Part shown: positions 8,929 to 32,131 of the stretch, in pieces
Layout of the letters: each line of letters opens with the position of its first letter
Position numbering within the stretch: the stretch's first letter is position 1
Notes under the pieces: generated by a model
What the model was told of the DNA's origin: nothing
Seen by the model: only the letters and a program-made list of their open reading frames with translations
Databases searched by the model: none
NCBI GenBank assembly: GCA_009380095.1
Contig: WHSL01000038.1
Location: 1 to 34,872 of the forward strand
DNA from: Streptosporangiales bacterium
GTDB taxonomy: Bacteria; Actinomycetota; Actinomycetes; Streptosporangiales; Streptosporangiaceae
Direction: 5' to 3'
DNA length: 34,872 nucleotides
Program-made: the position numbers and the translations under genes

Positions 8929-9372
8929 GTGCGCCGCACCCATCCCGAGGCCTCCCTAGCGGGCAGGCCCACCGCCACCGCTACCGCCACCGCCACCCGC
9001 CCTGGCCGCGCCGTGGCGCGGGCCGGCGCGGGTGAGGGGTGGGTGCGGGCCTGCGCGGTGGAGGCGTTGCCGGAGGGGTCGGTGCGCGGCGTGCCGGGGT
9101 TGCCCATCGTCGTGGGCAGGAACGGCGCCGGGATCTTCGCGGTCGGCGGGTACTGTCCGCACACCGGGGCCCGGCTCGAAAAGGGCCGGATCGTGGGCGA
9201 CTGCGTGGAGTGTCCGGTGCATGGGGCGCTGTTCGCACTGGCCGGCGGGCGCCGCAGGCGAGGGCCGGCGCGGCGCGGCATCCCCAGCTTCGACGTCCAG
9301 GTCCGCGACGGCATCGTCTACGTGTCACCGCAACCACGCCGGCGCGGCCCCGCCGCGTGGCTCCGGCGGTGA
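8929..9372 (+). CDS. Rieske [2Fe-2S] domain protein
   Basis: A single-domain Rieske ferredoxin-like protein of 147 residues. The cluster ligands are C76 and H78 in YCPHTG and C95 and H98 in ECPVHG, the CxH...CxxH pattern of Rieske centres; the cluster would carry one electron. The domain starts at WVRACAVEALPEGS, is interrupted by a basic loop (GGRRRRGPARRG), and closes with FDVQVRDGIVYVSP. A 38-residue N-terminal extension contains a run of Thr-Ala pairs encoded by a CACCGC-type hexamer repeat; later in-frame GTG codons could shorten it. The iron-box-like repeat directly upstream suggests repression by an iron-loaded regulator. No oxygenase or reductase partner lies nearby. The stop codon sits inside the first unit of a 24-bp tandem array. 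Confidence 0.75.
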   Translation: MRRTHPEASLAGRPTATATATATRPGRAVARAGAGEGWVRACAVEALPEGSVRGVPGLPIVVGRNGAGIFAVGGYCPHTGARLEKGRIVGDCVECPVHGALFALAGGRRRRGPARRGIPSFDVQVRDGIVYVSPQPRRRGPAAWLRR

Positions 9373-9505
9373 GGTGTCGCGTTGCTCCGCGGGTGATGTC
9401 CTGCGGGGCTCCGGCGGTGATGTCCTCCGGGCTCCGGCGGTGAGGTCCTGCGTGGCTCCGGCGATAAGGGCGGGTGGCTGCTCCGGCGATAGGGTCGGTG
9501 GCTGT
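9361..9505 (+). repeat. 24-bp degenerate tandem repeat, six units
   Basis: CTCCG starts recur at 9361, 9385, 9409, 9432, 9456 and 9481, spaced 24, 24, 23, 24 and 25 bp. The units read CTCCGGCGGTGAGGTCCTGC with variation. The first unit includes the stop codon of the Rieske gene; the last two carry GATAAGGG and GATAGGGT in place of GGTGAGGT, the latter forming the putative -10 of the folP2-like gene. Confidence 0.75.
9490..9495 (+). promoter_or_regulatory. -10 element TAGGGT of folP2-like gene
   Basis: TAGGGT in the last 24-bp repeat is followed by 8 nt and GTG 9504, consistent with a leaderless mRNA. Confidence 0.5.
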
Positions 9506-10337
9506 GACGGGGTTGCGGTTGCGGGGGCGCACGTTCGGGCCCGGTGAGCATGCCGTGATGGCGGTGGTGAACCGGACGCCGGACTCCTTCTTCGACCAGG
9601 GCGCCACGTTCGCGTTCGAGGACGCCGTGGCGGCGGCGGGCCGGGCGGTGGCCGGCGGGGCGGACGTGGTGGACATCGGCGGGGTGAAGGCCGGCCCCGG
9701 CGAGGAGGTCGACGCCGCCGAGGAGATCCGCCGGGTGGGGGGCGTGGTGCGGGCTGTCCGGCAGCGCTTCCCCGACCTGATCATCAGCGTGGACACCTGG
9801 CGTGCCGAGGTCGGGGATGCGGTCGCCGGGATGGGCGCCGACCTGCTCAACGACACGTGGGGCGGACCCGACCCGGAGCTCGCATCCGTCGCCGCCGCTC
9901 ACGGCATCGGGCTCGTCTGCGCCCATGCGGGCGGGCTGCCGCCGCGCACCGGCCCGCATCGCAGCGCGTACGACGACGTGGTGGCCGACGTGGTCGAGCA
10001 CGTCACCGGGCTGGCCGAGCGGGCCGTCGAGGCCGGGGTACGGCCGGACGCGATCCTCATCGACCCCGCGCACGACTTCGGCAAGAACACCCGGCACTCG
10101 CTGGAGATCACCCGGCGCCTCGGTGAGCTCACCGAGACCGGGTGGCCGGTGCTCGTCGCGGTGAGCAACAAGGACTTCATCGGCGAGACCCTGGACCTGC
10201 CGGTCCAGGAGCGCGACACCGGCACCACCGCGGCGGTGGCGCTGTCGGCGTGGCTCGGCGCCCGCATGTTCCGAGTCCACGACCCCGCCGCCGCCCGCCG
10301 GGCCCTCGCCACCGTCACCAACCTGGCCCATCTCTAG
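9504..10337 (+). CDS. folP2: Dihydropteroate synthase homologue, FolP2 type
   Basis: A TIM-barrel pterin-binding protein of about 277 residues. Landmarks match the mycobacterial FolP2 group more closely than folate-pathway FolP1: MAVVNRTPDSFFDQGATF, DIGGVKAGPGE, ISVDTWRAEV, LLNDTWGG, GLVCAHAGGLPPRT, DPAHDFGKNTRHSLEI, VAVSNKDFIGETLD and ARMFRVHD. Dihydropteroate synthase joins p-aminobenzoate to hydroxymethyl-dihydropterin diphosphate. The FolP2 paralogue has been reported to lack this activity in mycobacteria, so the true role is open. GTG 9504 is favoured by the TAGGGT placed 8 nt upstream; GTG 9474 or 9498 would add a few residues. No other folate gene is near. Confidence 0.8.
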   Translation: MTGLRLRGRTFGPGEHAVMAVVNRTPDSFFDQGATFAFEDAVAAAGRAVAGGADVVDIGGVKAGPGEEVDAAEEIRRVGGVVRAVRQRFPDLIISVDTWRAEVGDAVAGMGADLLNDTWGGPDPELASVAAAHGIGLVCAHAGGLPPRTGPHRSAYDDVVADVVEHVTGLAERAVEAGVRPDAILIDPAHDFGKNTRHSLEITRRLGELTETGWPVLVAVSNKDFIGETLDLPVQERDTGTTAAVALSAWLGARMFRVHDPAAARRALATVTNLAHL

Positions 10338-11090: not shown

Positions 11091-11134
11091 GAACGTTGCC
11101 TGACACCACACGTCCCATACGAAGGGGTTGTGAC

Positions 11135-11311
11135 ATGACGGACGACGGCCAGCGCGCGCAGAAGGTGGATCCTGACGGCCAGCGTGCCCAGGAGGATGAA
11201 GAGACCGTGGAGACCGACGGTCAGCGTGCGCAAGGGGAAGAGGGCACTGTCAGCACGGAGGGGCAGCGCGCGCAGGGCGACGTCTCCACGGACGGCCAGC
11301 GCGCTCAGTAA
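11135..11311 (+). CDS. Small acidic protein with five [D/E]GQRAQ hexapeptide repeats
   Basis: A 58-residue protein. ATG 11135 follows GAAGGGG with an 8-9 nt gap. Hexapeptides DGQRAQ or EGQRAQ lie at residues 4-9, 14-19, 28-33, 42-47 and 53-58, the last directly before TAA. Units three and four extend to a 14-residue repeat of the form [EG][DE]E[EG]TV[ES]T[DE]GQRAQ; unit five is a shortened version (GDVSTDGQRAQ). Across the five copies every nucleotide difference lies in a third codon position, so the peptide itself appears to be under selection. There is no Cys, no signal peptide and no hydrophobic core; it is probably disordered and cytosolic. Neighbours are the GLxx membrane peptide upstream and two acyltransferases downstream. 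Family and function unknown. A repeat-core modified-peptide precursor, a multivalent binding scaffold or an osmoprotective peptide are possibilities; none is shown. Confidence 0.7.
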   Translation: MTDDGQRAQKVDPDGQRAQEDEETVETDGQRAQGEEGTVSTEGQRAQGDVSTDGQRAQ

Positions 11312-11475
11312 CCCCACCGTGTGACCCACCGCGTGACGAACACGCCAAGGCGCCCGGGCCGGCATCAGGTCCCGTTCGGGCGCCGCGGCACGTCCCGCTC
11401 GAACGGGAGCTGAGCGGGGTGAGGTCGGTCAAGGGGAGTTCAGGTCGTGTTCGCTTGGGGGACGCCGGGCGTCGC

Positions 11476-11487: not shown

Positions 11488-12618
11488 GTGACCTCCGCCA
11501 CCGCACGCGACCCGCACCTCGACAACGCGAAGTTCCTGGCGATCGTGCTGGTCGTCGTGCCGCACGCCTGGCATCCGCTGGGTGGCGGCCACCTGCCGGA
11601 CTCGGCGCACCTGTTCATCTACCTGTTCCACATGCCGCTCTTCATCGGGCTGGCCGGCTACCTCTCGCGCGGCTTCGTGGCCGGGCGCGACCGCACGGAG
11701 AAGCTGCTCTGCGGGGTGCTCGCGCCGTATCTGCTGTTCGACGCGCTCTACCCGGTGTTCCGTACGGTCCTCGCGGACCGCACCTACGTGTGGAGCCCGC
11801 TCTCCCCGTACTACCTCGCCTGGTTCCTGCTCGCGCTGCTGGCCTGGCGGCTGTCGGTGCCGCTCTGGCGCCGGCTCCGGCATCCGGTGCTCGTGGCCGT
11901 GGGGCTGTCGCTGCTCGCCCCGGCGGTGGCGCTGCCGGACCCGGTGGTGGCGCGGATCCTCGGCTACCTGCCGTTCTTCGTGCTCGGCCTGTGCCTTCGC
12001 GCGGAACACCTCCGGTACCTGCGTGTCCCGCGGGTCAGGATCGCCGCCGCCGCGCTGCTCGGCCTCACCGCGGTCGCGGCGCTGATCGCCGAGCCGTACG
12101 TCCGGCTGGAGTGGCTGCACTGGCGGGACACGTACGCCGACCTCGGGGTCACCCCGCTCACCGGCGCCGCGGTACGACTGGCGCTGATCGCGGCCGGCGT
12201 CGTGCTCGCCGTCGCGTTCCTCGCGCTGGTCCCCGCCCGCACGTTCCGCTTCACCCCGCTGGGCGGCAACACGCTCTACCCGTACCTGTGGCACGGCGTG
12301 TTCATCCAGGTTGCCGAGTACGCGGGCGCCTACGCTTGGCTGAACGCCGCGGTGGGCCGGCACGCCGCGTACGGGATCGCGGCGTCGCTCGGCGTCGTGG
12401 CGGCGGTCGTGCTCTCCGTGTCGTGGGTGCGCCGCCTCACCGGCCCGTTCGTGGAGCCGCGCCTCACCGCGCTGCTCCGCCCGCGCCCCGGCCCCGCGAA
12501 ATCCACAAGCCCGGCCGCCCACCCAGAGACGCCGCAGGGAGGCCGCCCGGCTGTGAACCCCGAGGTACCACAGGGACGCCACCCGGCCGTGCCGTCCGCC
12601 CGCGTGGGAGAGGAATGA
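11488..12618 (+). CDS. Membrane acyltransferase (acyltransferase 3 family), first of pair
   Basis: An integral membrane acyltransferase of 376 residues with about ten spans. The start RDPHLDNAKFLAIVLVVVPH carries the family hallmarks: an aromatic or Asn/Lys-flanked first helix and the H at its end. LYLFHMPLFIGLAGYLS and PYLWHGVFI supply the other conserved His-containing turns. Such enzymes acetylate sugars or polymers at the outer face using cytosolic acetyl donor; some relatives are annotated as fucose 4-O-acetylase-like. The C-terminal 50 residues are a Pro-rich tail with a repeated PQG.HPAV/PQGGRPAV motif. It overlaps the second acyltransferase by ATGA (12615-12618), so both are probably made together. 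Substrate unknown; a cell-wall or surface glycan is likely. Confidence 0.82.
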   Translation: MTSATARDPHLDNAKFLAIVLVVVPHAWHPLGGGHLPDSAHLFIYLFHMPLFIGLAGYLSRGFVAGRDRTEKLLCGVLAPYLLFDALYPVFRTVLADRTYVWSPLSPYYLAWFLLALLAWRLSVPLWRRLRHPVLVAVGLSLLAPAVALPDPVVARILGYLPFFVLGLCLRAEHLRYLRVPRVRIAAAALLGLTAVAALIAEPYVRLEWLHWRDTYADLGVTPLTGAAVRLALIAAGVVLAVAFLALVPARTFRFTPLGGNTLYPYLWHGVFIQVAEYAGAYAWLNAAVGRHAAYGIAASLGVVAAVVLSVSWVRRLTGPFVEPRLTALLRPRPGPAKSTSPAAHPETPQGGRPAVNPEVPQGRHPAVPSARVGEE

Positions 12619-13682
12619 CCGCCAGCACCGGCACCGGCACCGGCACCACCGGCACCACCGGGACCGCCACGACCGGCACCGGCACCACCGCCACCCCGCC
12701 GCCCACGACCGGTGCGCGCCCCCGGGACCCTCACCTGGACAACGCCCGCTTCCTCGCCGTGGTCCTGGTCGTCGCCGGACACGCCTGGGCGCCCCTGGCC
12801 GGCATGGGCGCCGTCGACGCCATGCACCTCGCGGTGTACACCTTCCACCTCCCGGTCTTCGTGCTCATCTCCGGCTACCTGGAGGCGAACTCCTCGGGCC
12901 GCGACCGCGCCCGCAGGCTGTTCACCGGCGTCCTGGTCCCGTACCTGATCTTCGAGGCGGCCTACCCGGCCTGGGCGGCGCTGGTCGCCGGGAGGCACTT
13001 CTCCTGGAGCCCGTTCGAGCCGTATTACGTGACCTGGTTCCTGCTGGCCCTGCTCTGCTGGCGGCTGTCCGCGCCGGTCTGGCGGCTGGTGCGATGGCCG
13101 GTGCCGATCGCGGTGGCCGTGGCGCTCGCGGCCGGCGCCGTCGCGCTGCCGGAGATCCTCCAGCGGGCGCTGGTGCTGATGCCGTTCTTCGTGCTCGGCA
13201 TGCGGCTGCGCGCCGAGCATCTCACGGTGCTCCGCCGCCCGGCGGTCCGCGTGGCGGCCGCGGCGCTGCTGCTGCTCGCGCCGGTGGCCGCGCTGTTCCT
13301 GGAGTCCCGGGTGGACGCGGAGTGGGTGCACTGGCGCGCGGACTTCGCCGGCCTCGGCCAGGGCGTGCCGCTCGGCGTCGCCGTACGGGCCGCCGCGCTC
13401 GCCGCCGCCACCCTGCTGACCGCCGCGTTCCTGGCGCTGGTCCCGTCCCGCCACGTCTGGTTCACCCGGTACGGCTCCGCGACCCTGCAGGTCTATCTCC
13501 TCCACGGCTTCGTGGTGCTGGCCGCGACCTGGGCCGGCTGGTACACCTACGCCAGGTCGATCCCCGGAGCGGTCATCGTGACCGTCGCCGCCGTCGGCCT
13601 GGCGCTGCTCCTGGCGCGGCCGATCGTGGCCCGGGTGACCCGCTGGGCGGTGGCCCCCAGATTGACCTGGCTCCTGCGCTAG
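12615..13682 (+). CDS. Membrane acyltransferase (acyltransferase 3 family), second of pair
   Basis: A 355-residue paralogue of the preceding gene, starting inside its stop (ATGA). After a 38-residue Thr/Gly-rich head (TGTGTTGTTG, from a GGCACC-type DNA repeat at 12620-12700) it begins RDPHLDNARFLAVVLVVAGH and follows the same plan: TFHLPVFVLISGYLE, PYLIFEAAYP, YYVTWFLLALLCWRLS, MPFFVLGMRLRAEHL and VYLLHGFVV. About ten membrane spans. The two proteins share nearly every motif in the same order, so the pair arose by tandem duplication. Functioning as a heterodimer or on two related substrates is possible. Confidence 0.82.
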   Translation: MTASTGTGTGTTGTTGTATTGTGTTATPPPTTGARPRDPHLDNARFLAVVLVVAGHAWAPLAGMGAVDAMHLAVYTFHLPVFVLISGYLEANSSGRDRARRLFTGVLVPYLIFEAAYPAWAALVAGRHFSWSPFEPYYVTWFLLALLCWRLSAPVWRLVRWPVPIAVAVALAAGAVALPEILQRALVLMPFFVLGMRLRAEHLTVLRRPAVRVAAAALLLLAPVAALFLESRVDAEWVHWRADFAGLGQGVPLGVAVRAAALAAATLLTAAFLALVPSRHVWFTRYGSATLQVYLLHGFVVLAATWAGWYTYARSIPGAVIVTVAAVGLALLLARPIVARVTRWAVAPRLTWLLR

Positions 13683-13927: not shown

Positions 13928-16102
13928 ATGACCGAACACCGCGAGACCGGCCGTCCCGGCAGCGGTGGTGGCTCAGAACCACCCCCTGGCAACCCCCTGA
14001 TCCCCGATGACGGGGAGGACGCACGCGCCGGCTGGGCGCAGACCGCCGTACAGCCCCCGCCCGGCAACACGGTCGAGCGACTTCCCGTCACGATCTTCTT
14101 CTCGGTGGCCAGCGCGCTGCTCGCCGACATCGTGGCGCAGCAGGTCCCGGTGCCGTGGAGCGCCCTGCTCGTCGCGATGGCGGCGATCGTCGGTGCCGTC
14201 GGCGGGCGCATGCTGGAGCGGGTGATCGCCGCGGACTTCTCCTCCGCCACCGCCCGCGGCATCGCCGCCGTCCGGTCCGGGTTCGAACGGCTGCAGCCGC
14301 TCTGGCGGATGATGGGGCCGATCGACGACGCGGTGCTCAAGCTCGCCAAGTTCCTCATCCGGCCCACCGTGGCCGGGTTGACGGCCGCGGTGGTGCTCGC
14401 CGTGCTGATCGCCCCGAAGATCACCGCGATGGTCTCCCCGGAGCCGGAGTGCGCTCCGCCGAAGGAGCTGCCGGTGCTGATTTCGCCCGAGCTGGCCGGC
14501 CAGATCCGCACCGCCGCCGCCGGGTTCGAGGACGAGCAGGCCGCGAGCTCCGGCTGCCGGCGCGTACACGTGACCGTGTACACCGAGGAGAAGCTGCAGT
14601 CGGTGATCCGCGCGCTCCGCGTAGGCTGGCGTTCGGACACCGCAGGCGACCGCCTGTCCAGCGCCTTTAACACGATCGGCCCGCGCCCGGTGCTGTGGAT
14701 CCCGTCCTCCATGGCGGACGTCCAGCAGGTGCCGCGGTCCTCCGGCGAGCCGATGCCGGAGCTGCGGCCCCTCGGCCCGACGGTCTGGTCGCCGCTCGTC
14801 CTCGGCGTCCCGGAGAACCGGGCGAAGGACCTCGACCTCGCACACCGCGACTCCATGAACTGGACGCAGGCGCTCGCCGCGCTGCGCCGGGAGCGCATCC
14901 GGCTGGTCCGGCCCAACCCGGACTCCTCCGCCGCCGGCCTACTGCACACCACCGCCGTGCACGAGGCGCTGAACGGCGGTGGCGCCGACGCCTCCCGCGC
15001 GCGGGTGGAGTTCCGCCGCTTCGAGCACGCCGTCGGGCGCAGCCCCTCCAGCGACCACGAGCTCCTCTGCGCGTTGCGCGACGGCCGGCTGCCGCGCGAC
15101 GAGACGGCCGTGATGGTCAGCGAGGAGTCGCTGATCGCCTACAACGCCGGCCAGTCGCTCGGGGAGCCCTGCGGCGGCGCGCCGGGCGGGCTCGCCGCCG
15201 ATCCGAAGCTGCTCGCCTACTACCCGGAGAGCGGGTACGGCCTCGACTACCCGGTCGTCCAGGTGAACTGGCCGGGCTTCGGCGACGACCAGACGCAGGG
15301 CTTCGTCGGCCGGCTGTACCAATACCTGGCGCGCAACGTGGGCGGCCCGCTGATCGGCTCCGGGCTGCGCGACGCACACGGGGGCCACGGCCAGCGATAC
15401 CCGCCCGGCGGCGAGCCGCCCACCATGTACTGGGCCGGCAACGAGCCCGCGAGGCCGAAGCCCGAGTCCGTACGGCGCACCCTCGACGAGGTCGGACAGA
15501 CCCGCGACGCCACCCGGATGCTGCTCACCGTGGACACCTCGGACGGCATGGACGCCGAGGCGAGCCCCGGGCTGACCCGGCTCGACGTGGCCGCCGTGGC
15601 GGCCGAGGGGGCCGCCGGCTACCTCGGCGACGGGGACACGCTCGGCATGTGGACGGTGCCCGGCACGGACGGCCGGCCGTACACGGACGCCGTACGGCCG
15701 AAGAAGCTGGAGGGGGACCGCGGGCTCGACCAGCTGGACCTGATCCGGCAGGAGCTGCGGGAGCCGCGCCGGGGCGCCCGCCAGTCCGTGAACCAGGCGA
15801 TCGAGGCGGGGGTGGAGGACCTGGGGCGGCAGCGCACCCCCGGCACCACCGCGCTGGTCGTGTTCACCTCGGGTGATCCGGCACCGGACCGGGAGGGCCT
15901 GCTCCGCGTACGGGCCGCGATGGACGCCAACCCCGACGTGCGCGTCTTCGTGATCGCCCCGGGACGCGACGCCTGCAAGGCCGAGGGCATCGACGGGCTC
16001 GCCCGGGCCGCCGAGGTGACGTGCCATGACGGCGACCTCGTCGACGTGGAGGACACGGTGCGGGGCGTCTTCGAGGATCTCTGGAAGGTGACGACGCCGT
16101 GA
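13928..16102 (+). CDS. Membrane-anchored substrate-binding domain fused to VWA domain
   Basis: A 724-residue protein. After about 50 cytosolic residues there are two close spans (VTIFFSVASALLADIVA and WSALLVAMAAIVGAVGG, near residues 55-95) and a third (VAGLTAAVVLAVLIAP, near 145-165). Outside the membrane, residues about 175-500 resemble a bacterial solute-binding fold (LPVLISPELAGQIRTAA, VHVTVYTEE, MVSEESLIAYN, LLAYYPESGYGLDYPVV). Residues about 528-724 form a VWA domain. The metal-site motif reads LTVDTSDGMD (D536) in place of the usual DxSxS, and the later TDG loop is TSGDPAPD, so the MIDAS is altered and may not bind metal normally. GTGA overlap couples it to the next gene. Role unknown; a surface sensor or assembly platform is inferred. 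Confidence 0.78.
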   Translation: MTEHRETGRPGSGGGSEPPPGNPLIPDDGEDARAGWAQTAVQPPPGNTVERLPVTIFFSVASALLADIVAQQVPVPWSALLVAMAAIVGAVGGRMLERVIAADFSSATARGIAAVRSGFERLQPLWRMMGPIDDAVLKLAKFLIRPTVAGLTAAVVLAVLIAPKITAMVSPEPECAPPKELPVLISPELAGQIRTAAAGFEDEQAASSGCRRVHVTVYTEEKLQSVIRALRVGWRSDTAGDRLSSAFNTIGPRPVLWIPSSMADVQQVPRSSGEPMPELRPLGPTVWSPLVLGVPENRAKDLDLAHRDSMNWTQALAALRRERIRLVRPNPDSSAAGLLHTTAVHEALNGGGADASRARVEFRRFEHAVGRSPSSDHELLCALRDGRLPRDETAVMVSEESLIAYNAGQSLGEPCGGAPGGLAADPKLLAYYPESGYGLDYPVVQVNWPGFGDDQTQGFVGRLYQYLARNVGGPLIGSGLRDAHGGHGQRYPPGGEPPTMYWAGNEPARPKPESVRRTLDEVGQTRDATRMLLTVDTSDGMDAEASPGLTRLDVAAVAAEGAAGYLGDGDTLGMWTVPGTDGRPYTDAVRPKKLEGDRGLDQLDLIRQELREPRRGARQSVNQAIEAGVEDLGRQRTPGTTALVVFTSGDPAPDREGLLRVRAAMDANPDVRVFVIAPGRDACKAEGIDGLARAAEVTCHDGDLVDVEDTVRGVFEDLWKVTTP

Positions 16103-17418
16103 CCCGCCTCCCCCAGTTCATCCGTGGCAGCCGCTGGTTCTGGCTGGCGCTGGCGCTCGCGCTGCTGGTCGCGGTGCCGCTGGCGATCGTCGGCGGCCTG
16201 CGGATATGGGAGCGGCTGGCGGGCGACCTGGAGCCCGGGCCGATCGTGCTCGCCAGCGGCACCGACGTGAGCCTGAACCGGCAGCGCCAGCAGCTGATCG
16301 ACAAGTGGAACCTCGAGCACCCGGCCAACCCCGCCACCATGGTGGAGCTCTCGCAGGTGGCGGACCTGCAGCGGAGCCAGATGGTGACGGCGGCCCAGCA
16401 GCGGAGCGCGAACTACGACGTGCTCAACATCGACGCGCAGTGGACCGCCGAGTTCGCCCGCGGCGACCTGCTCCGGCCCATCGACGAGACCCGGCTGGAC
16501 ACCGGGGACTACCTCGACGTCGCGCTGGACGGCGCGCGCTACCGGGACCGGCTCTGGGGGGTGCCGTTCAACGCGGACGCCGGCCTGCTCTACTACCGCG
16601 CGGACCTGCTGCGCCAGTACGGGATCCAGCCTCCCGACCACTGGACCTGGCGGGCGATGAACGACACCTGGGTGAAGATCATCACCTTTGGGCGCCCGGA
16701 GGGGCTCCGGTCCGGGATCGGGCTGAACATGGGCGCGTACGAGGGCCGCACCATCAACATGCTGGAACAGGTCTGGGACGCGGGCGGCGAGGTGGTCCGG
16801 GACCCGAACATCGTGACCGTCGACACCGAGGTGGCCTCCGAGGGGTTCCGGCGGATCGCCAACGGCGTCGAGGGCGGGCGGTACGCCTTCATCGACCCGC
16901 GCTCCCGGGGCTGGGCCGAGGACAACGTGGTGCAGAGCTTCAACAACGGCGAGCTGCTGTTCATGCGCGGCTGGCCGGTGGCGTACCCGCAGGTCGACAA
17001 GGCCCTCGGCAAGGACGCGAACGGAAGGTCGCGGGTGGGCGTGGCGGCGCTGCCCGGCCCGAGCGTGCTCGGCGGGCAGAACCTGGCGATCGCGGCGGGG
17101 TCCCAGCGGCCCAAGGCGGCGCAGGCGCTGATCGAGTTCCTCACCTCGGCACCCGCGCAGCGGCAGCTGTTCTTCAGGGGCGGGCTGGCCCCCGCCCGGG
17201 AGAGCGTGCTGGAGGACACCGAGCCGAGCCAGGTCCCGTACGTGAACATGCTCCGCCTCGCGCTGGAGACCGCGCGGAACCGGCCGGTGACGCCGTACTA
17301 TCCGCTGTTCACCCGGGTCATGCAGGAGGAGGGCGCGCGGCTGCTGAGCGGCGACAGCGACGGCGCGGACACCCCCGCGCTGGCCGGCCGGCTGAAACGG
17401 GTCCTGCAGGGCGGCTGA
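16099..17418 (+). CDS. Membrane-anchored extracellular solute-binding protein (family 1 type)
   Basis: A 439-residue protein. GTG 16099 overlaps the upstream stop (GTGA). An N-terminal helix (WFWLALALALLVAVPLAIVGG, residues 14-34) has no lipobox Cys, so the protein is probably held by an uncleaved anchor. The rest matches sugar-type binding proteins of ABC importers: IVLASGTDVSLNRQRQQLID, YDVLNIDAQWTAEFARGDLL, LWGVPFNADAGLLYYR, ELLFMRGWPVAYPQ, LGGQNLAIAAGSQRPKAAQ and FRGGLAPARESV. No permease or ATPase gene follows; the next genes are convergent. Together with the VWA partner this suggests use of the binding fold for sensing or docking, or that the permeases are elsewhere. Confidence 0.82.
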   Translation: MTRLPQFIRGSRWFWLALALALLVAVPLAIVGGLRIWERLAGDLEPGPIVLASGTDVSLNRQRQQLIDKWNLEHPANPATMVELSQVADLQRSQMVTAAQQRSANYDVLNIDAQWTAEFARGDLLRPIDETRLDTGDYLDVALDGARYRDRLWGVPFNADAGLLYYRADLLRQYGIQPPDHWTWRAMNDTWVKIITFGRPEGLRSGIGLNMGAYEGRTINMLEQVWDAGGEVVRDPNIVTVDTEVASEGFRRIANGVEGGRYAFIDPRSRGWAEDNVVQSFNNGELLFMRGWPVAYPQVDKALGKDANGRSRVGVAALPGPSVLGGQNLAIAAGSQRPKAAQALIEFLTSAPAQRQLFFRGGLAPARESVLEDTEPSQVPYVNMLRLALETARNRPVTPYYPLFTRVMQEEGARLLSGDSDGADTPALAGRLKRVLQGG

Positions 17419-21559: not shown

Positions 21560-22357
21560 TCACAGCGCGGGCCCCTGCCCGTCACGGGCGGGGGCCTCGC
21601 CGTGCGCGGGGCGGGTGGAGAAGAGGCGGGTGACGGCGGCCTCCATGGTGTCGTCGCCGCGCAGGCCGTCGAGGTCGCCGTCGTAGCCGAGGCGGCCGTG
21701 GTCGATGACCAGCACGCGGCGGCAGAGCCGCTCCACGTCGCCCAGGTCGTGCGTGGTGAGCAGCACCGTCGTGCCGCGCTCGGTGTTCAGCGACTCCAGC
21801 ACGCCGCGCACCGTGGCCTTGCTGATCACGTCCAGCCCGATGGTGGGCTCGTCCAGGATCAGCAGCGGCGGCTCGTGCAGCAGCGCCGCGGCGAGGTCGC
21901 CGCGCATCCGCTGTCCCAGGCTGAGCTGCCGTACGGGCGTGCGCAGGAACGGCTCCAGCTCCAGCAGCCCGGTCAGCTCGGCGAGGCGCCGCGCGTGCGC
22001 CCGCGCGTCGAGCCCGTACAGGTGGCGCACCAGGGCCAGGCTGTCCCGCAGCGGCAGGTCCCACCAGAGCGTGGTGCGCTGCCCGAACACCACCCCGATG
22101 TGCCGGGCCAGCCGGGTGCGCTGCCGGGACGGCTCCAGCCCGGCCACCCGTACCCGCCCGGAGCTGGGCCGGAGGATGCCGATCAGCATCTTGATGGTGG
22201 TCGACTTGCCCGCGCCGTTCGGCCCGAGCAGCCCGACGAACTCGCCGGGCTCGATGGTGAAGGTCAGGTCCGCCACGGCGGGCACGCGGCGGCGGCGCCG
22301 GGTGAACACGCGGGTCAGTCCGGTGGTCTCGATGATCCCCGTGGTTTCGATGAGCAC
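21560..22357 (-). CDS. ABC exporter ATP-binding protein
   Basis: A 265-residue ATPase. Walker A is GPNGAGKST, the Q-loop lies in VFGQRTTLWWDLP, the signature is LSLGQRMRGD, Walker B is LLILDEPTIGLD and the switch His is in TTHDLGD. It powers the two membrane subunits encoded just upstream and is the last gene of that operon, separated by 7 nt. GTG 22357 has GAGG 7-8 nt upstream. The N-terminus repeats IETTG (LIETTGIIETTGLTR), a short in-frame duplication before the first strand. The substrate is unknown; the architecture suits export of a lipid, antibiotic or polymer. Confidence 0.9.
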   Translation of the reverse strand: MLIETTGIIETTGLTRVFTRRRRRVPAVADLTFTIEPGEFVGLLGPNGAGKSTTIKMLIGILRPSSGRVRVAGLEPSRQRTRLARHIGVVFGQRTTLWWDLPLRDSLALVRHLYGLDARAHARRLAELTGLLELEPFLRTPVRQLSLGQRMRGDLAAALLHEPPLLILDEPTIGLDVISKATVRGVLESLNTERGTTVLLTTHDLGDVERLCRRVLVIDHGRLGYDGDLDGLRGDDTMEAAVTRLFSTRPAHGEAPARDGQGPAL

Positions 22358-22364
22358 TGCATCC

Positions 22365-23192
22365 TCAACTTCCGGTGGAGCGATAGCGGCGCAGCCCCGC
22401 GCGCCAGCACAGCGCGGCCACGGCGGCGGTGGCCAGCGCTACCGCGGGGGAGGCGTGGCGCAGCCACTCGGGGAGCCCGAGCGGGTCGGGACGGTCCAGC
22501 ACGTACAGCGCGGGCTGCCAGTTCACGAACGCCAGCGGCACCACGAACGTGGTGAAGCGGACCAGGTCGCGGGGGTAGATGGCCATCGGGTACGAGGTCA
22601 GCTCCTTCCCGCCGTAGGTGAAGGCGTTCGACGCCTGCGCCGCGTCCACCGCGATGAACTGGAACGCGGCCCCGACCACCCAGATCGACGAGGCGATCAC
22701 CGTGCCGGACACGACGAACAGCACTGTGAAGGCGACGAGCCCCGGCGTCCACGCGACGTCGAGGCCGGCCGCGCCTATCAGCAGGGCCGCCAGCGCCGGG
22801 GCGAGCTTGCCGAGCCGGCGCGGGGAGAACCGGTCGACCGCGACCTGGACGAGCGGGCTGACCGGGCGGGTCAGCATCACGTCCAGCCAGCCGCTGCGGA
22901 TGTGCGCGCCGATCCGCTCGAGCGAGCCGACGAGCGTGTCGGCCAGAGCGAACGCCGTCGCCGCGGTCCCGTACAGGAACAGCACCTCCGGCTCCGTGAA
23001 CCCGGCGATCCGGGTGGTGTGCGCGAACACGATGAGGATCGCGGCGACGTCCAGCGCCGCGCCCACGGTCTGCGCCAGCGTGAGCATCGCCAGCGAGACC
23101 GGGTACTGCAGCAGCGCCCGGCACCACACGCCGGCCAGCCGGAGGTAGGCGTGGACCGGGCCCATCGGCCGGGGGCGGGCGAGCTCAGCCAC
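22365..23192 (-). CDS. ABC-2 type permease subunit (second)
   Basis: A 275-residue membrane protein with six or so spans, of the ABC-2 type found as paired permeases in actinomycetes and cyanobacteria. Typical stretches are YLRLAGVWCRALLQYPVSL, LFLYGTAATAFALADTLVG, the coupling region GAHIRSGWLDVMLTRPVSPL, and YPMAIYPRDLVRFTTFVVPLAFVNWQPA. GTG 23192 overlaps the stop of the first permease by 8 nt, so the two are translated together as a heterodimer. Confidence 0.87.
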   Translation of the reverse strand: MAELARPRPMGPVHAYLRLAGVWCRALLQYPVSLAMLTLAQTVGAALDVAAILIVFAHTTRIAGFTEPEVLFLYGTAATAFALADTLVGSLERIGAHIRSGWLDVMLTRPVSPLVQVAVDRFSPRRLGKLAPALAALLIGAAGLDVAWTPGLVAFTVLFVVSGTVIASSIWVVGAAFQFIAVDAAQASNAFTYGGKELTSYPMAIYPRDLVRFTTFVVPLAFVNWQPALYVLDRPDPLGLPEWLRHASPAVALATAAVAALCWRAGLRRYRSTGS

Positions 23193-30658: not shown

Positions 30659-32131
30659 ATGGCCTACTTCGAGACCGAAGAACCCCTGGCTTTGACGAAC
30701 GACCTGGATCTCGTCACTTTCGGCCAGCGGTTGCGTCATCTGCGCCGTACGCGCGGCCTCACCCTGGCCGAGCTCGGCGAGAAGGTCGGACGTGCCCCCT
30801 CCCAGCTCTCGCTGCTGGAGAACGGCCGCCGCGAGCCCAAGCTGTCGCTGCTCAAGTCGCTCGCCCTGGCGCTCGGCGTGGGCGTGGAGGAGCTGCTGTC
30901 CCGGCAGGCGCCGAGCCGCCGCGCGCAGCTCGAGATCGCCCTGGAGGAGGCGCAGCGCGACCCGCTGTACACCTCGCTGGGCCTGCCGCACCTCAAGGTC
31001 GGCAAGCGGGTCCCCAACGACGTGCTGGAGCACCTGCTCGGTCTCTACACCGAGCTGAAGCGGCGCCAGCTCAAGCCCACCGCCACGCCCGAGGAGGCGC
31101 GCCGGGCCAACGCCGAGCTGCGCCGGCGCATGCGGGAAAGAGGCAACTATTTCGCTTCCATCGAAAAGGCGGCCGCGGAGACCCTGGAGACGGTGGGCTA
31201 CCAGGCCGGCGCGCTGTCCCAGGGGCTGATCCTGTCGATCGTCACGCACTGCGGCTTCACGCTGCGGTACGTACCGGACCTGCCGCGCTCGGTGCGCTCG
31301 GTCACCGACATGCGGAACCGGCGGATCTACCTCAAGCGCGAGTCGCTCGGCATGCACACACCGCGCACGATCCTGCTGCAGACGCTGGGCCACTTCGTGC
31401 TCGGGCACAGCCAGCCGCGCGACTTCGCGGACTTCCTGCGCCAGCGGGTGGAGGCCAACTACTTCGCTGCCGCGGTGCTGGTGCCGGAGAAGACCGCGGC
31501 GCCGTACCTGCAGAAGGCCAAGGCCGACCGGGACCTGTCGGTGGAGGACCTGCGCGACGTGTACTCGGTGTCGTACGAGATGGCCGCGCACCGCTTCACG
31601 AACCTGGCCACCCGCTACCTCGATCTCGTCAACCACTTCGTCCGCAACGACGAGACAGGGATCATCTACAAGGCGTACGAGAACGACGGGCTGATCTTCC
31701 CCGCGGACGGCACCGGCGCCATCGAGGGCCAGCGGATGTGCCGGTACTGGGCGGGGCGGCAGGTGTTCTCCTCACCGGACCGGTACTCGCTGTACTACCA
31801 GTACACCGACAAGCCGAACGGGACGCACTTCTGCGTCGCGCACGTCGACCCGAGCCGGGAGCGCAACTTCGCGATCACGCTCGGGGTGCCGTACGCGGAG
31901 TCCCGCTGGTTCCGCGGCCGCGAGACCACCATGCGGGCCAGCTCGCAGTGCCCGACGGGGGAGTGCTGCGTGCGTCCGCCGGCGGACCTGGCGGCCCGCT
32001 GGGAGGGCATGGCCTGGCCGTCCGCGCGCGCCCATTCGCACGTCCTCGCCGCACTGCCTCCCGGCACGTTCCCCGGCGTCGACGAGACCGACGTCTACGC
32101 CTTCCTGGAGGCCCACTCCACCGAGGCCTGA
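30659..32131 (+). CDS. ramB: RamB/ScfR-type short-chain fatty acyl transcriptional regulator
   Basis: A 490-residue regulator. Residues about 20-78 are an XRE helix-turn-helix ([36 protein letters not shown]). A central part resembles IrrE/ImmA peptidases, but where these have HExxH the sequence reads [10 protein letters not shown], and [12 protein letters not shown] follows, so the zinc protease motif is degenerate and the domain is probably a ligand sensor. The C-terminal ScfR domain contains a Cys cluster ([12 protein letters not shown]). In mycobacteria and corynebacteria RamB represses or adjusts isocitrate lyase and acetate genes; divergence from aceA supports the same role here. It begins at ATG 30659, 6 nt after a -10 hexamer. 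Confidence 0.9.

Follow-up and report, generated by a model that had tools for sequence, protein, structure and literature searches.

An orphan open reading frame for a probably disordered repeat protein with five GQRAQ units in a Streptosporangiales bacterium

A small open reading frame (ORF) in a Streptosporangiales draft genome encodes five copies of one short peptide motif. The window analysed here, meaning the whole stretch of 34,872 nucleotides, is contig 130 of a draft genome of 6.09 Mb in 413 contigs, and the repeat gene lies in it between a dihydropteroate synthase (DHPS) gene and two acyltransferase-3 family genes (Table 1). The 105-residue ORF upstream of the repeat gene consists of a hydrophobic N-terminal segment, recognised by eye, followed by GL-type repeats, and no family match was found for it. 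It stops 44 bases 5' of the repeat gene and both share the start context GTGACATG. A predicted hairpin is located between the repeat gene and the first acyltransferase gene; the 176-nt stretch as a whole shows no unusual stability (z -1.05), and a scan found no standard terminator around the repeat gene. No promoter was found by a scan limited to the sigma-70 type. The two adjoining acyltransferase-3 genes share 52% identity across residues 2-335 of the 376-residue query, and six places in the same genome match the first of them. Further upstream, a DNA tandem repeat with a period of 24 and ca. 4.7 copies (9353-9463) is present between the end of the Rieske gene and the start of the DHPS gene. 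At another locus (L015) a Rieske relative (49%) adjoins DHPS, as at 8929-10337 in the window.

Table 1. Positions of the repeat gene, its units and surrounding features in the window
Feature	Position	Strand	Remark
Rieske ferredoxin-like protein	8929-9372	+	
Dihydropteroate synthase (DHPS)	9474-10337	+	
ORF, 105 aa	10773..11090	+	possible upstream partner
Leucine-rich ORF, 92 aa	11087-11365	-	antisense to the repeat gene
Shine-Dalgarno-like GAAGGGG	11121..11127	+	7 nt 5' of the repeat-gene ATG; read from the sequence
Acidic repeat protein, 58 aa, probably disordered	11135..11311	+	ORF from ATG to TAA
Nonamer unit 1, MTDDGQRAQ	11135..11161	+	
Nonamer unit 2, VDPDGQRAQ	11165..11191	+	
Nonamer unit 3, VETDGQRAQ	11207..11233	+	
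Nonamer unit 4, VSTEGQRAQ	11249..11275	+	
Nonamer unit 5, VSTDGQRAQ	11282..11308	+	abuts the stop codon
Predicted hairpin	11370..11408	+	13-bp stem, no U run; possible terminator
Acyltransferase-3 family gene, first	11488-12618	+	
Acyltransferase-3 family gene, second	roughly 12630-13682	+	
Large protein without match	to 16102		downstream of the acyltransferases
Extracellular solute-binding protein	16099-17418		downstream
ABC transporter pair	21560-23192		with the next entry, 10-19 kb from the repeat gene
Regulator-like protein with Peptidase_M78 domain	30659-32131		downstream

The product of the repeat gene is composed of nonapeptide units and short linkers. Its full sequence, MTDDGQRAQKVDPDGQRAQEDEETVETDGQRAQGEEGTVSTEGQRAQGDVSTDGQRAQ*, contains four copies of DGQRAQ and one of EGQRAQ with the last unit directly preceding the TAA stop codon, in agreement with the sequence and frame described in the initial annotation. 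Aligned on GQRAQ, the five units follow the consensus [M/V]-x-[T/P/D]-[D/E]-G-Q-R-A-Q, in which GQRAQ is identical in 5/5 units and the first three positions vary freely. No residues precede the first nonamer or follow the fifth, and the linkers K, EDEET, GEEGT and GD (1, 5, 5 and 2 residues) are mostly acidic. Nonamers joined by variable linkers are a better description than the 14-residue repeat originally proposed for two of the units, which is recast here in these terms. Unit-to-unit spacing is 30, 42, 42 and 33 nt, each a multiple of 3. Units 1 to 3 begin with ATG, GTG and GTG, respectively, and units 4 and 5 with GTC. In 20,000 residue shuffles of the protein, no 5-mer was present more than twice. 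An alternative TTG start at 11096 would add 13 residues to the product.

Differences between the units are largely synonymous in the sense frame. Across the hexapeptide DNA, 5/6 third codon positions and 0/12 first and second positions are variable (Fisher p 0.0007, assuming independent columns). This bears out the earlier remark that the copies differ in third positions only, but not all of these changes are silent, as GAC/GAG swaps D for E. The 10 pairwise comparisons between hexapeptides give 28 base differences, of which 24 are silent (pN 0.029, pS 0.600). This corresponds to a pN/pS of 0.05, a value that is descriptive given five units, few events and non-independent pairs. The same comparison in the other five frames yields 3.31 for the antisense frame of the same phase and 0.41 for antisense +1, with no synonymous differences in the remaining three. 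For the whole nonamer pN/pS is 0.33, and since its first three positions vary freely only [DE]GQRAQ represents a firm motif. Tandem Repeats Finder, run with a lowest score of 30, reports no array within 11135-11311, which indicates that the repeat lies in the peptide and not in a recent DNA array. The absence of a recent DNA repeat expansion, as first claimed, is thus upheld, and selection at the amino acid level, the second part of that claim, is backed by the mostly synonymous change between units.

Codon usage lends weak support to the repeat gene because its GC3 of 0.81 is below that of the 18 long genes in the window (0.89-0.98). Its GC content by codon position is 0.83/0.47/0.81; most long window genes show a lower-first, high-third pattern. 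The per-codon usage score of the repeat gene is 0.09. DHPS and the acyltransferase, both used in training, score 0.44 and 0.46, respectively, and the antisense frame of the same phase reaches 0.19. The antisense score is important here: on the opposite strand DGQRAQ becomes LRALAV, and in GC-rich DNA a Leu/Ala-rich gene can cast a shadow frame that is acidic and rich in Gln and Arg. The antisense ORF nevertheless fails the unit comparison despite its better codon score, so it was probably the sense peptide that was under selection. In addition, of the two start codons, the sense ATG has the clearer ribosome-binding site as read from the sequence. Judged by its sequence, the repeat ORF is probably a real gene, in which the motif core is preserved despite varied DNA spelling.

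GC-rich DNA also yields other repeated 5-mer peptides whose copies differ synonymously. Among 139 sequences, five copies of the present locus being excluded, other synonymously varying 5-mers with at least four copies show comparable or larger differences. Some are of low complexity (five SASPS in L093, five PGEPG in L083) and others are not (four LPGAV and four TAPGR in L043). The SASPS copies of L093 have five distinct DNA spellings within a 469-residue frame, and L045 contains three copies of PGQRP. Look-alikes of the repeat protein occur in other genomes. One, L073 (DPDGQRQ ... VETDGQQEQ), appears to be an antisense shadow: the longer frame on the other strand (501 aa, GC3 0.95) has the profile typical of coding sequence. 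Another, the ADGSRAS heptapeptide repeats of L144, arises in one frame of a DNA array (303-427, 21-base unit, six copies, 94% matches) and is a DNA-level repeat, unlike that of the window.

The 58-residue protein has a calculated mass of 6.2 kDa, a pI of 4.08 and a GRAVY of -1.67. It contains no aromatic, Cys, Leu or Ile residues and consequently neither a folded core nor an export signal is evident; a membrane segment, signal peptide or leader is likewise not evident in the sequence. The single-sequence AlphaFold2 model is of low confidence (mean pLDDT 62.2, pTM 0.21) and lacks any helix of at least four or strand of at least three residues, which is weak evidence. Pfam and NCBIfam profiles, including those of LEA families, gave 0 matching families at E up to 1.

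No homologue of the 58-residue protein was confirmed in any search. Within its own genome, the protein search returned one match, the repeat gene itself, and a nonamer profile (GTG rendered as M in two rows of the alignment) recovered the five units followed by nine matches at E 0.92 or worse. Counting the gene itself, and with genome draws that overlap, matches were obtained in 5/297 family genomes at E<=0.01 (four of them non-own, in frames 363-1087 aa long), 34/394 class genomes at E<=0.05 (nine non-own matches in frames <200 aa), 5/396 phylum genomes at E<=0.01 (non-own frames 268-422 aa long) and 58/80 relatives at E<=10 (best non-own E 0.0097). In many genomes candidates were scored in part, with a maximum of 21 in the family search and 16 in the class and phylum searches. 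The match stretches inspected (eight plus hits, 15 minus hits and one further plus hit; L070 in part, L120 excluded) include two with a single GQRAQ (L064 and L080) and none with two. Two GQRAQ in one open frame were also absent from 20 further places, namely seven short-frame class hits, five short-frame places of the 80-relative search and eight DNA matches touching the repeat gene, and overall from the 148 retrieved loci other than its own (0/148). The ungapped hexapeptide pattern occurs in 331/345 genomes of the order and is uninformative without clustering. Scans of GTDB with the protein (225 pattern-matched stretches) and with a spacer-masked copy (13 stretches, the sole pattern being the N-terminal MTDDGQRA), of viral contigs (seven matched stretches) and with the DHPS neighbour (20 stretches) yielded 0 confirmed cases. 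Nothing in phages or plasmids matched at E up to 1, and the only PDB match (E 0.26) was judged to be chance.

The surroundings of the repeat gene were compared in the same way. DHPS relatives are found in 54/60 genomes, the most similar being 76% identical, and across 30 DHPS loci with flanks of up to 1.5 kb the repeat protein, the 105-residue ORF and the acyltransferase occur at the gene's own locus only. Acyltransferase relatives are present in 20/41 genomes, and among the 64 sequences compared repeated GQRAQ is confined to the window and copies of the same locus. Relatives of the 105-residue ORF were detected in 9/150 genomes; five of seven match loci represent simple GL-type repeats and the matching frame is not displayed in the other two. 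A DNA search with the locus matched 71/200 family genomes, two candidates being scored per genome, and the listed non-own matches are short (<= about 140 bases) and mostly located in the low-complexity 105-residue ORF. GQRAQ was not found in the accessible portions of the literature, and listings and abstract openings on hydrophilins, small repeat proteins and RiPP repeats contained nothing on the 58-residue protein. The initial annotation had looked to homologues in relatives for support and to their absence for refutation. The outcome is negative throughout, though a weak negative, as the three fully listed searches (60, 345 and 80 genomes) include no second genome of the same genus. The relatives covered belong to other genera; sequence searches could miss a disordered protein of 58 residues at this distance, and several searches scored part of their candidates, so this result is not proof of newness.

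We tentatively favor, with a probability of roughly 0.4, a lineage-restricted gene for a cytosolic disordered protein that would present five equal short linear motifs to one partner and act by multivalency. We count in its favor the constancy of GQRAQ, the free third positions, the acidic hydrophilic chain and the lack of a family match, and against it the lack of a homologue, the weak codon usage and the fact that no neighbor points to a partner. The apparent target of selection is an acidic residue followed by GQRAQ, with linker length being free. Unit boundaries at both ends of the protein together with linkers that vary in length and sequence suggest that the motif rather than the spacing is the function. 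Since the acidic residue and GQRAQ are held while the linkers vary, a repeated binding or modification site fits better than a chain defined by composition only. If translated, the protein may be bound, or modified, at all five equal sites by one partner protein, which the five-site peptide could gather, titrate or buffer. The stretch around T-V-E-T may resemble phosphothreonine sites in regulators with FHA domains, GarA among them. In a bolder version, duplication of a nonapeptide ORF produced an adaptor with five sites for clustering or titrating a dedicated partner, under strong selection in one lineage; this would make it a bacterial multivalent protein of a new, minimal kind. Growth by such duplication is suggested by the ATG, GTG and GTG codons still found at the start of units 1 to 3, but we regard this version as quite unlikely.

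Both the multivalent ligand and the stress-type disordered protein initially proposed remain under consideration. The latter, a hydrophilin acting as a soluble Gly- and charge-rich disordered protectant in drying or osmotic stress, is doubtful in its own right and nearly as likely as the multivalent reading. Its repeat would reflect composition. The accessible text of PMC7448490 defines hydrophilins by glycine >6% and hydrophilicity >1.0, and the 58-residue protein exceeds both values (13.8% and 1.67), a likeness to hydrophilins and LEA-like proteins that the predicted model without regular structure may extend. It differs from them in matching no Pfam or NCBIfam family at E up to 1, and composition alone is not expected to keep GQRAQ exact in five of five units. 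We know of no hydrophilin or LEA-like protein with exact nonamer units. No finding speaks for stress control: the promoter scan was negative and covers the sigma-70 type alone. It is unlikely that the ORF is non-functional, that is, that it arose recently or by chance in GC-rich DNA, possibly as a shadow of the antisense Leu-rich ORF. The missing homologue, the low GC3, the higher codon score of the antisense frame (0.19 against 0.09), the L073 look-alike opposite a typical coding frame and the other 5-mer repeats of GC-rich frames are all consistent with this explanation. Against it, unit differences are mostly synonymous in sense (0.05) and mostly amino acid-changing in antisense (3.31), units are always spaced in threes and the sense start has the clearer ribosome-binding site.

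A modified-peptide precursor, also suggested initially, is now disfavored. Multi-core RiPP precursors contain short repeated units with spacers, and the alternation of equal short units with acidic linkers is similar, each unit being a potential core; Thr immediately precedes D/E in units 3 to 5, and the window encodes an ABC transporter pair and a Peptidase_M78 regulator-like protein, but 10-19 kb away. In contrast to such precursors, unit 1 begins at the ATG without a leader, the usual modified residues are absent (Cys, Trp, Tyr and Phe) and no peptide-maturation enzyme was recognised nearby among the 33/35 window ORFs searched against Pfam, 15 entries being searched against NCBIfam as well, making this origin very unlikely. 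Least probable of all is an acyl-donor (glutamine) substrate of microbial transglutaminase: the chain appears flexible and carries two Gln per unit, but an export signal is not evident and PF09017 is unmatched in the genome, as it equally is in all 14 control genomes. The strands of beta-propellers (WD40, PD40, YVTN) often contain SPDGQR-like words, and the word [ST/P]-D-G-Q-R is shared with the 58-residue protein, whose units are however just 10-14 residues apart, lack hydrophobic strands and have no Pfam match to the respective propeller profiles at E up to 1.

The original observation is confirmed and sharpened, and its interpretation is supported in part: the locus appears to encode an orphan, probably disordered repeat protein, and the present evidence does not make it more than that. 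Comparing synonymous with amino acid-changing differences between units in every frame helps to distinguish real repeat proteins from antisense shadows and can be applied in GC-rich genomes when homologues are absent. If translated, the product would offer a clean natural case of a protein in bacteria made solely of repeated short motifs, and could help in studying the origin and the binding partners of multivalent disordered proteins.
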